Source: Eublepharis macularius
Taxonomy: Eukaryota > Chordata > Lepidosauria > Squamata > Eublepharidae
Assembly: GCF_028583425.1 (NCBI RefSeq)
Contig: NC_072806.1
Coordinates: forward strand, 31,232,001-31,296,000
Length of the DNA stretch: 64,000 nucleotides
Direction of reading: 5' to 3'
The translations under genes and the position numbers were made by a program. Below the pieces are notes generated by a model, which made no database searches, was not told the origin of the DNA, and saw only the letters and a list, made by a program, of their open reading frames with translations. This document shows positions 23,801 through 26,800 of this stretch, piece by piece. Position 1 is the first letter of the stretch, and each line of letters starts with the position of its first letter.

Positions 23801-26800
23801 AGGACCGCACAATGACATCACTTTGGGTCAGCTGGAACAAAGGGGGCGTTTTTTAAAGTTTAAATCGCCCTCGGCGAAAATGGTCACAGTGCCACCAGCC
23901 CTGTGACCATTTTGAAGAGGTGCCGGAACTCCGTTCCACTGCGTTCCAGCTGAAAAAAAAAGCCCTGGCTAGGAGTGCCTTCTTTCAGTGGTGTCTGGAC
24001 AGGAAAATTCTCCCATTTTTGAATATTGCTGATCTGGCAATTCCGACCTACAATAACCTCGAATCTAGACTACTGTAATGGGGCTACATGGGGCTGCCCC
24101 TGAAGACAATTTGGAAGCTGCAGTTGGTCCTGAACCAACTGGTGTTAGCTAGGACACTGCCCTGTTTGCTCCTGGATCCAGTTCAAGGTGTGGATTTAAA
24201 GTGCTTTATGAGTGGATCCCACATGCTTGGAGGACTGCCTCTCCCTCATATGAGAAGAAGCTTATCCAGGCACACAGAAACTACAGGGAACAGGAAAACC
24301 TCCCAGGAACATAACCAATCACCGTACAGACCAACCAGTAAGCCTGGAAGACCTCTGTACTATATCTTGATGGACTGATAATTTATTGATGCTTTTTGGA
24401 TGTATTTACATTATTGCATTATTTATCAACATATTTATGGTATTTATTGTGTGTATGAAATTAGGGCGGTTTCCGCCTCTGTTCACTTTGGGCCCCTTAT
24501 CCCTTTAAATTATACTGATTAATTGAGACATATGTATTGACGTGATTGGTCTTGTTGCTGGGAGGTTCTCCTCTTCCCTGTAGTTTCTCCCACATGTGAG
24601 CCTGGGGGGACCTTAAGATCCTCACAATCGGGTTTGCTCAGGGCTTTTTTTCAGCTGGAACGCAGAGGAACGGAGTTCCGGAACCTCTTGAAAATGGTCA
24701 CATGGCCGGTGGCCCCGCCCCCTGATCTCCAGACAGAGGGGAGTTTAGATTGCCCGCTGCAGCGGGCAATCTAAACTTCCCTCTGTCTGGAGATCAGGGG
24801 GCGGGGCCACCAGCCATGTGACCATTTTCTCCGAGGGCAACCCACTGAGTTCCACCACCTCTTTTCCCAGAAAAAAAACCTGGGTTTGCTATTTTTTCTC
24901 TCCTAAAGAGAAGCTTTGGCGGGGCACAATTTTTTTTATGGCAGCCCGTTCTTATGGAATAGGCTGCCAGTTATCTCAACCGATTCAGAAGGGCAGTAAA
25001 ATCGAAAAGAGTCCAGTAGCACCTTTAAGACGAACCGACTTTACTGTAGCATAAGCTTTCGAGAATCACAGTTCTCTTCGTCAGATGCATGACGGGAGGT
25101 ATGTTGCATCTGAAGAAGAGAACTGTGATTCTCGAAAGCTTATGCTACAGTAAAGTTGGTTCATCTTAAAGGTCCTACTGGACTCTTTTTGATTTTGCTA
25201 CTACAGACTAACACGGCTAACTCCTCCAGAAGGGCAGTAAGGGATCTTTGTTTAGGGTTTTAATAGCAATTTATTGTACTGGCATTTAAATACATATCAG
25301 GTTTCTGTTTTTTTTTATTCTCTCGGTTTTTACTATAAACTGCTTTGTGCAATGAAGAAAAGTGGTGAAGCAATATAGTTTTTAAAAACCTCTATGAGCG
25401 AATTATGTTTTAAAGAGCAGTCGGACATGCTAAGAATCGAACCTGGGATTTTTTTTGCATACAAAACTGATGCTCTGTCAGCTGAGCCATGGCCTCTTCC
25501 CAAGCCTTAAGAAAAACCTCAGCAACCTGGGAGATTCTAACAACAGGCCTCATGTTTACTCTGGCTCTCGAAAGCCTGTCAGGCTACTGTCCTTTGTGAC
25601 AGCTGCAATGTAAGAAACAGGCTTAAAAAACAACAAACCAGTAAGAACTGTGCTGCACGTTGTATGTTTAGATGCATGCTTAAAATCAAATGCAGCAAAC
25701 CACTCTGGGCCCTGCATTGTGAGGCAAAAGGCCCTCAGACTTCCTGTTCCCTTTGTGTCTACCTTGTGTTCTCCCCAAACGGCACCACCGCTAATTCCCA
25801 TGAGCCGTGTTGTTTCCAAAGTGCTGGGGGGAGCGCACGGCCAGAAGTCCTCTCGAGAGTAATCCCACCCCTCTCCCTGTTCATACTAGAGAGCTGGCAA
25901 ATGCTCCCAATATCTCCAAAGATACCCAGGCAAACAAATGGAAAAATGAACAGAGTGAATGAATGAATAATGGAAGGCGAGCAGGCTTTATTGATTTAAG
26001 AATGTTTGCGTTGTGTATCTGGACACCATGACCTTGCTAATTTGCCTTTTAACGGTTGGTGGGTAAGGCGGTAGGCTCTCTGTTATTCAAACTGCTATCC
26101 TCTGTAGATGAATATCTCCCTCTTTATCATTTGCAGCTACAAAGCAGGATGTGTGTGTGGGGGGGGACTGTGTGTGTGTTTGGTGGGGACGAAACACAAA
26201 AATGAGGAAGGGAAAATTCTACCCCTTAATTACTTTGCAGAAATCTGGGTATCTAATGTTTGCTTGATGAGAAGTATCCTCCGTAGGATACACACAGCCA
26301 GGTTTTAGTGACTCTGGGGGAAAGGGAATTCCAAAGTTGAGGGGCAGTGACCCCTCTGGGCAACCCTGTGGCCTTGTTTTGGTGCCTATACATTAATGCC
26401 TATAAAAGAAACAAAGGAATTGGCAACACCGACAACACAAATAGGCGAAAGGAAAAACTTTGCAATGACCAGACATGGAAACCGAAAGGAAATGAAGAAG
26501 GGGGTGTTCCTCCATCTCTGATTTCAAAATCCCTTATTTCAAAATCCAGATGGAAGCAGCTTCTTAAATATGCTGGTCCTCAGCTATTCAGAAGTTGGAA
26601 GAAATATTTTTCACCAGGCTGCATCCACATATGAGTGGCAAATGTGCAATCATTTGCAACTGGATCGTCTTGTCTACAAAGGACAGTCCAATGGCCAACA
26701 ATGGTATCACAAAACACTAGTGTGGTATCCAAAGATGTGTGGACATAGCCTTAAAAAGCACTGAGGGCAGCACAAACACTATCCCTGCCAAGGGGGCAAG

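Follow-up and report, generated by a model that had tools for sequence, protein, structure and literature searches.

In the window, the 64-kb stretch of Eublepharis macularius DNA analysed here, we identified a 227-bp insert that consists of two Penelope-like tails in head-to-head orientation, and comparison with its relatives in the same genome indicates that such a dimer appears to be a mark left afresh by a Penelope-type element at each insertion rather than an element that travels by itself. We consider it probable that these dimers arise by two-strand target-primed reverse transcription of an endonuclease-bearing Penelope-like element, in one event after which the ends are joined. At stake are the way in which Penelope-like elements complete their integration and what allows their terminal repeats to be inverted while only one side bears an extension.

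Anatomy of the insert and its source family

The insert (Table 1) contains no open reading frame, and both its coding-free 227 bp and the perfect 14-bp duplication around it, as described in the earlier note, are present. Positions within the tail refer to a 134-nt reference tail cut from one of the relatives (L014), with the head ATGCATCTGACGAAG and the end TCTGGATCTATGA; on this scale, the left arm covers 96 to 1 in reverse, and the right arm covers 2 to 123. The inverted-repeat arms (24995–25089 and 25105–25199) are 94% complementary, with a spacer of 15 nt. The previous description of one reversed and one forward tail meeting at hammerhead-like cores holds for the opposed arms and for the motifs beside the junction, but the arms are unequal, the left one ending 32 nt before the 3′ end of the right one, and a filler of 14–15 nt intervenes next to ATGCAT. 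The proposal that the insert arrived as a unit stands, in the sense of one insertion event, with a single target duplication enclosing both arms. The older LINE in which the earlier note placed the insert is not established by the flanks, which on joining give only a degenerate LWNRLP reading, as judged by eye.

Table 1. Features of the tail dimers and of the related Penelope-type sequence in the window
Feature	Position	Strand	Basis
Penelope-type ORF fragment with GIY-YIG endonuclease domain	5527–6009	+	Pfam PF01541
Tail copy downstream of the GIY-YIG ORF; end near inner site, without extension	6092–6180	+	
Target site duplication, left copy, 14 bp, CAGAAGGGCAGTAA	24986–24999		repeat search
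Left arm: reverse complement of the tail, inner site (GATT...) to head ATGCAT; without 3′ extension	25000–25089	−	
Junction filler, head-to-head; common to none of the others among the 40 copies read	25090–25104		
Right arm: tail, head to 3′ end	25105–25226	+	
Minimal hammerhead-like motif	25106–25145	+	predicted
3′ extension (“tail” in the Penelope-like element literature); right arm only	25195–25226	+	
Target site duplication, right copy, 14 bp, perfect match to left	25227–25240		
Second head-to-head dimer; left arm 85 to 2, right arm 10 to 129; flanking repeat weak (6 bp)	45630–45832	+	
Third dimer, target site duplication CTTAAATTAACTG, first copy	55092–55104		
Third dimer, in opposite orientation; arm with extension limited to tail 73–134, other arm 96 to 1	55105–55257	−	
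Third dimer, target site duplication, second copy	55258–55270		

The source family was read from the GIY-YIG fragment together with the tail copies. The fragment matches PF01541 with an E-value of 1.8e-5 (25.4 bits, cut-off 22.6), and because 82 bp separate its end from a further tail copy downstream, the tail can be assigned to an endonuclease-bearing Penelope-like element, in agreement with the Penelope origin claimed previously.

Two further arrangements of these sequences were seen outside the window. In L050 (7498–7736), a GIY-YIG coding fragment stops at NVTYA and joins the head of a tail near a shared ATATGC, as if by a template jump or by a deletion at microhomology. In L019, the dimer sits in sequence that by eye resembles window positions 6010–6090, between the end of the ORF and the tail, as if it had inserted into another Penelope copy.

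The ATGCAT hexamer, which the junction filler adjoins, begins a predicted minimal hammerhead-like motif composed of stem I (GCAU/AUGC), a CUGAAGA core, stem II (GAGAA/UUCUC) and GAAA, with stem III absent. In the representative tail, GCAU/AUGC and GAGAA/UUCUC stems are predicted around CUGACGA and GAAA. From the hammerhead core and the cleavage rule, which we take to apply to this motif, cleavage is predicted between positions 25141 and 25142. Minimal hammerheads without helix III are described from Penelope-like elements in passages of PMC7761336, and the predicted motif in the tail is in keeping with these. The folding energy of the whole tail is no better than that of shuffles (z 0.27, representative tail), and no Rfam hammerhead match on the tail was found among the matches to E 5 in 24000–26500.

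Among the candidates set aside, the Rfam matches at 24705–24851 and 25056–25140 score far under the gathering cut-off and reflect long hairpins. For a hammerhead reading with a helix III of GC-UUAU-GC, no helix I could be drawn; the folding prediction is consistent with the alternative in which stem I is GCAU/AUGC. The stem II loop varies among the relatives, being one base shorter (CTTGA for CTGTGA) in both arms of L021 and L030 and in the left arm only of L026 and L058.

The neighbourhood of the insert holds other repeats. About 160 bp to its left lies a GC-rich palindromic repeat (24690–24829) with 70-bp arms, no spacer and 97% complementarity, which recurs at about 11275–11451 and 34146–34400 of the window and in L004, L009, L041, L045, L046 and L059, with about 85–92% identity. 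The stretch 12627–12999 holds a 106-bp inverted repeat whose arms are 100% complementary, together with another, nested pair, and the open frames in this stretch repeat one peptide. An open frame of 1083 codons on the reverse strand (47657–50908) is probably a host gene.

Relatives of the insert across the genome

A search of the own genome (2.24-Gb assembly, 72 contigs) with the insert as query gave 2384 first-look candidates, the best 40 of which (L001–L030 and L051–L060) were scored and every one read; all 40 scored relatives, the best of the 2384 candidates, are head-to-head dimers. A systematic sample of 20 stretches of 10 kb (200 kb) contains four tail insertions with ~84% identity or more, namely, two dimers (L036 and L042) and, both in L050, one single 5′-truncated tail and a tail to which a GIY-YIG fragment is joined; five older tail matches (72–78%) lie outside this classification. 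Within the window, dimers account for three of five such tail insertions, the insert at 25000 counted, with three older matches outside the classification. Two more lie in the flanks of other loci: L012 has a further dimer, enclosed by a 12-bp duplication of its own, and L014 has an inverted partial pair. The dimers are a sizeable class within a small sample, which is too small for a rate; two dimers per 200 kb would scale to roughly twenty thousand genome-wide, with a very wide margin. The further dimer of L012, at 809–943, has the duplication TTTTCCTGGTAG, is strongly truncated (98 to 53 and 45 to 132) and is the second at this locus, lying ~25 bp past the first.

The earlier note had suggested looking for flanking duplications around other inverted pairs, and these are found: 34 of the 40 copies lie between exact repeats that are 9 bp or longer (11 bp or longer in 27 of the 40), compared with 17 of 1951 control pairs that reach 9 bp, in which left and right flanks come from different copies. 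The length of the duplication is variable, with exact repeats of 9–15 bp in the 34 copies, and a flanking repeat of 9 bp is absent from L004, L013, L020, L052, L053 and L057. Target bases were counted in the 34 copies with repeats of at least 9 bp, the six others being left out. A G directly follows the duplication in 23 of the 34 (8.9 expected, given maximal repeats), and a C directly precedes it in 16 of the 34 (8.5 expected), these two columns having been chosen after inspection of 32. The two ends look alike, as if the same base preference acted on opposite strands at both ends of the duplication. The mean A+T content is 64% in the 34 duplications and 57% in the left flanks.

The junctions are rarely shared between copies, with 37 distinct junction strings among the 40 and three strings that occur twice, each of 3–4 nt. 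Fillers in the first 30 copies are 0–22 nt long, and 15 of the 30 start with GAC, some extending to GACGAAG. They look like products of end joining with template jumps, or of entry into the inverted arm upstream in the template, and the GAC and GACGAAG starts hint at template jumps or at a snap-back step. Among the 40 copies, which were fetched with a query that favoured complete arms, the left arms end at tail positions 1–4, and the right arms begin at 1–4 in 39 copies and at 15 in L059.

Arm variants were compared in the first 30 of the 40 copies, a set that includes neither the other two window dimers nor L036 and L042, and re-pairing matched left arms with right arms of other copies. We counted 36 variants that are concordant between the arms of their copy, where re-paired arms gave 10.1 on average and at most 21 (2000 shuffles). 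Differences between arms total 124, where re-pairing gave 196 on average and never fewer than 171 (1000 re-pairings). At tail position 47, the arms agree in 30 of 30 copies. Much of the divergence between arms is private to one arm, because 40 variants occur in a single arm and only 2 of the 10 variants present in exactly two arms are found in both arms of one copy. Both arms of a copy mostly come from one source subfamily, and the junction is not inherited. From the diversity of the junctions and the variants common to both arms of a copy, we infer that the dimer is formed at insertion; in this sample, its spread as a unit is disfavoured because copying of the unit would hand down its junction.

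Each of the 44 dimers examined (the 40 copies, the other two window dimers, and also L036 and L042) carries the extension, of ~35 nt, on one arm and lacks it on the other. The left arms end at tail positions 82–104 and the right arms at 121–134. Matches to the extension that exceed the shuffled control are absent from all 44 left flanks, and every right arm (44 of 44) runs into the extension, with scores of at least 20 in 42 arms and of 18 in the remaining two. A measurement of left-end positions covered 34 copies, and the placing failed in L013 and L042 (9 and 10 of 18 probe letters). Because 40 of the 44 dimers were fetched with a query bearing the extension on one side, extension-less dimers could be missed, whereas dimers with two extensions should not be hidden by this query, since they would score as well. 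The right arm was defined as the arm reaching tail position 110 or beyond, so that an extension-less dimer would print as a failure, and no such failure was printed among the 40 copies. The four dimers found without that query (the two window copies, L036 and L042) and the second dimer of L012 have one extension each.

Origin of the dimers

In the two-strand target-primed reverse transcription that we favour, both target strands would be cut, about 12 bp apart, presumably by the element's own protein, and both free 3′ ends would prime reverse transcription of a short, head-containing RNA of the element, which would thus be the template of both arms. The first cDNA would start at the outer RNA site and give the right arm with the full 3′ extension, whereas the second would start at the inner site, some 35–40 nt upstream, and give the left arm without it. 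Each cDNA would be extended up to the 5′ end of the RNA, close to the hammerhead-like motif (ATGCATCTGA...), and the two ends would then be united by end joining with a short filler, leaving a body-less head-to-head dimer and a target duplication. One start at each of the two sites, on either target end, would lead to the anatomy of the dimers described here, and the in vitro work on the Anolis element PAc, treated below, is in line with this scheme. Should the head mark the 5′ end of the RNA, transcripts are predicted to start at ATGCATCTGA, and an enzyme starting only ~90–134 nt downstream would copy nothing else, which would explain the missing body.

Several copies bear on the templates of the arms. 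In the third window dimer, at 55105, and in L042 (33–132 against 86 to 6), each arm holds sequence that is absent from the other, so that neither arm was copied from its partner, later deletion aside; asymmetric deletions of the centre of the palindrome after insertion could mimic independently truncated arms. The arms of L017 are two different haplotypes, one of which is also present in the left arm of L009, and this suggests that two RNA templates may have been used. L036 (right arm 1–133, left arm 96 to 29) is compatible with two-strand priming and with snap-back alike. Less easily fitted to two-strand priming are the six copies without a flanking repeat of 9 bp, the many variants private to one arm and the filler starts with GAC, to which the possible loss of extension-less dimers from the sample may be added.

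Snap-back, in which one strand primes and the finished cDNA folds at the ATGCAT palindrome and copies itself, so that the second arm is DNA-templated, seems to us an unlikely origin. It would accommodate the arms within a copy that usually belong to the same subfamily (30 copies), the position of the junction at a palindromic hexamer and the 15 of 30 fillers with GAC at their start, some of them with the head sequence GACGAAG, and palindromes at inverted junctions are known in rotifer Penelope from passages of PMC3846280, whose self-priming model is close to it but is placed on an antisense template. The copy at 55105 and L042, however, would call for later deletion of the centre to explain the sequence that each arm has and its partner lacks; the two haplotypes in L017 and the same small indel that distinguishes the arms of L026 and of L058 speak against self-copying, and snap-back would offer no obvious cause for the regular ending of the left arm at the inner site. 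Far less credible is a mobilised nonautonomous dimer that is transcribed and retrotransposed as one RNA, in the manner of a SINE-like family. Although many copies share the same gross structure, copies of such a family would share the internal junctions of a master, and 37 of 40 junction strings are distinct, while the similarity of arms within a copy exceeds that of re-paired arms. The compact mobilised inverted dimer which the earlier note had offered as a possible nonautonomous class is thereby largely refuted in the best-40 sample.

Two independent insertions, or a rearrangement after insertion (inversion, or recombination between two tails), are more improbable still: adjacent insertions do occur, as in L012, where two dimers lie within 400 bp, but a single target duplication surrounds both arms in 34 of the 40 copies, and the arms meet close to the head in the 40, which were fetched with a query favouring complete arms. 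The least probable origin is a MITE, that is, a DNA-transposon-like fold-back element whose inverted repeats are moved by a transposase. Long inverted arms and target duplications would be expected of it, yet the duplications are variable in length, the termini are ragged and unequal, one end being ~35 nt longer in each of the 44 examined dimers, and a tail copy lies beside the ORF of a GIY-YIG retroelement.

Beyond the origin of single dimers by two-strand target-primed reverse transcription, it is quite possible, although in our view not the likelier case, that this reaction is the normal outcome of integration in the lineage. The protein would act through two subunits that cut both strands and each copy RNA, the outer start site serving one subunit and the inner site the other. 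Both ends would be RNA-templated, so that joining could follow without DNA-templated second-strand synthesis; the one-tail rule would reflect, in vivo, two polymerases seated on adjacent sites, and body-less dimers would be the commonest product. An extensive archive of Penelope jumps seems to be preserved in this genome: the many short, readable dimers represent natural reaction products in bulk, in which one can count points of truncation, sites of initiation, target preferences and modes of joining, and which make the models separable by sequence alone.

Comparison with known systems

The component features of the dimers are known already; in the literature searched (titles, starts of abstracts and passages), we found no description of the body-less dimer as a frequent product, of the uniqueness of its junctions or of the one-tail rule. 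In LINE-1 twin priming, the second target strand primes on the RNA, which produces an inverted segment within one target duplication, and the cDNAs derive, as a rule, from separate but adjoining segments of the RNA. Second-strand priming on RNA would be common to both systems, whereas here both cDNAs would cover the same segment.

Retrozymes, the hammerhead-bearing nonautonomous retrotransposons treated in passages of PMC7761336, resemble the dimers in being non-coding, in carrying a hammerhead motif, which in the dimers is predicted, and in relying on other machinery. In the DNA sequence considered here, the dimers give no evidence of tandem units, of a heritable nonautonomous unit or of circular RNA.

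In the rotifer Adineta vaga, passages of PMC3846280 describe EN-containing Penelope elements (Pen2a_Av and others) with a head-to-head inverted pLTR at the 5′ side. There, the inverted copy is 37 bp shorter, a 31-bp extension is optional at one inverted pLTR, a palindrome is located at the junction, target duplications are short, and self-priming was proposed. An extension on one of two inverted pLTRs, a trait of EN-containing Penelope, is also found in the dimers; the inverted pLTR of Pen2a_Av and others, however, flanks an ORF-bearing element, whereas the dimers here are two tails alone.

For purified PAc (Poseidon, Anolis carolinensis), passages of PMC11167929 report that both target strands are cut and extended in vitro and that reverse transcription uses two adjacent internal RNA start sites, the interval between which corresponds to the genomic tail. 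A strict one-tail rule is not predicted by these passages, because the strands show no apparent difference in start site there. PAc and the scheme proposed for the dimers here are alike in two-strand cleavage and extension and in two start sites, and stems I and II of the hammerhead motif of PAc have predicted counterparts in the tail, but the PAc work, in the passages considered, is in vitro and mentions no body-less genomic dimers, whereas here each examined pair uses both sites, one per arm.
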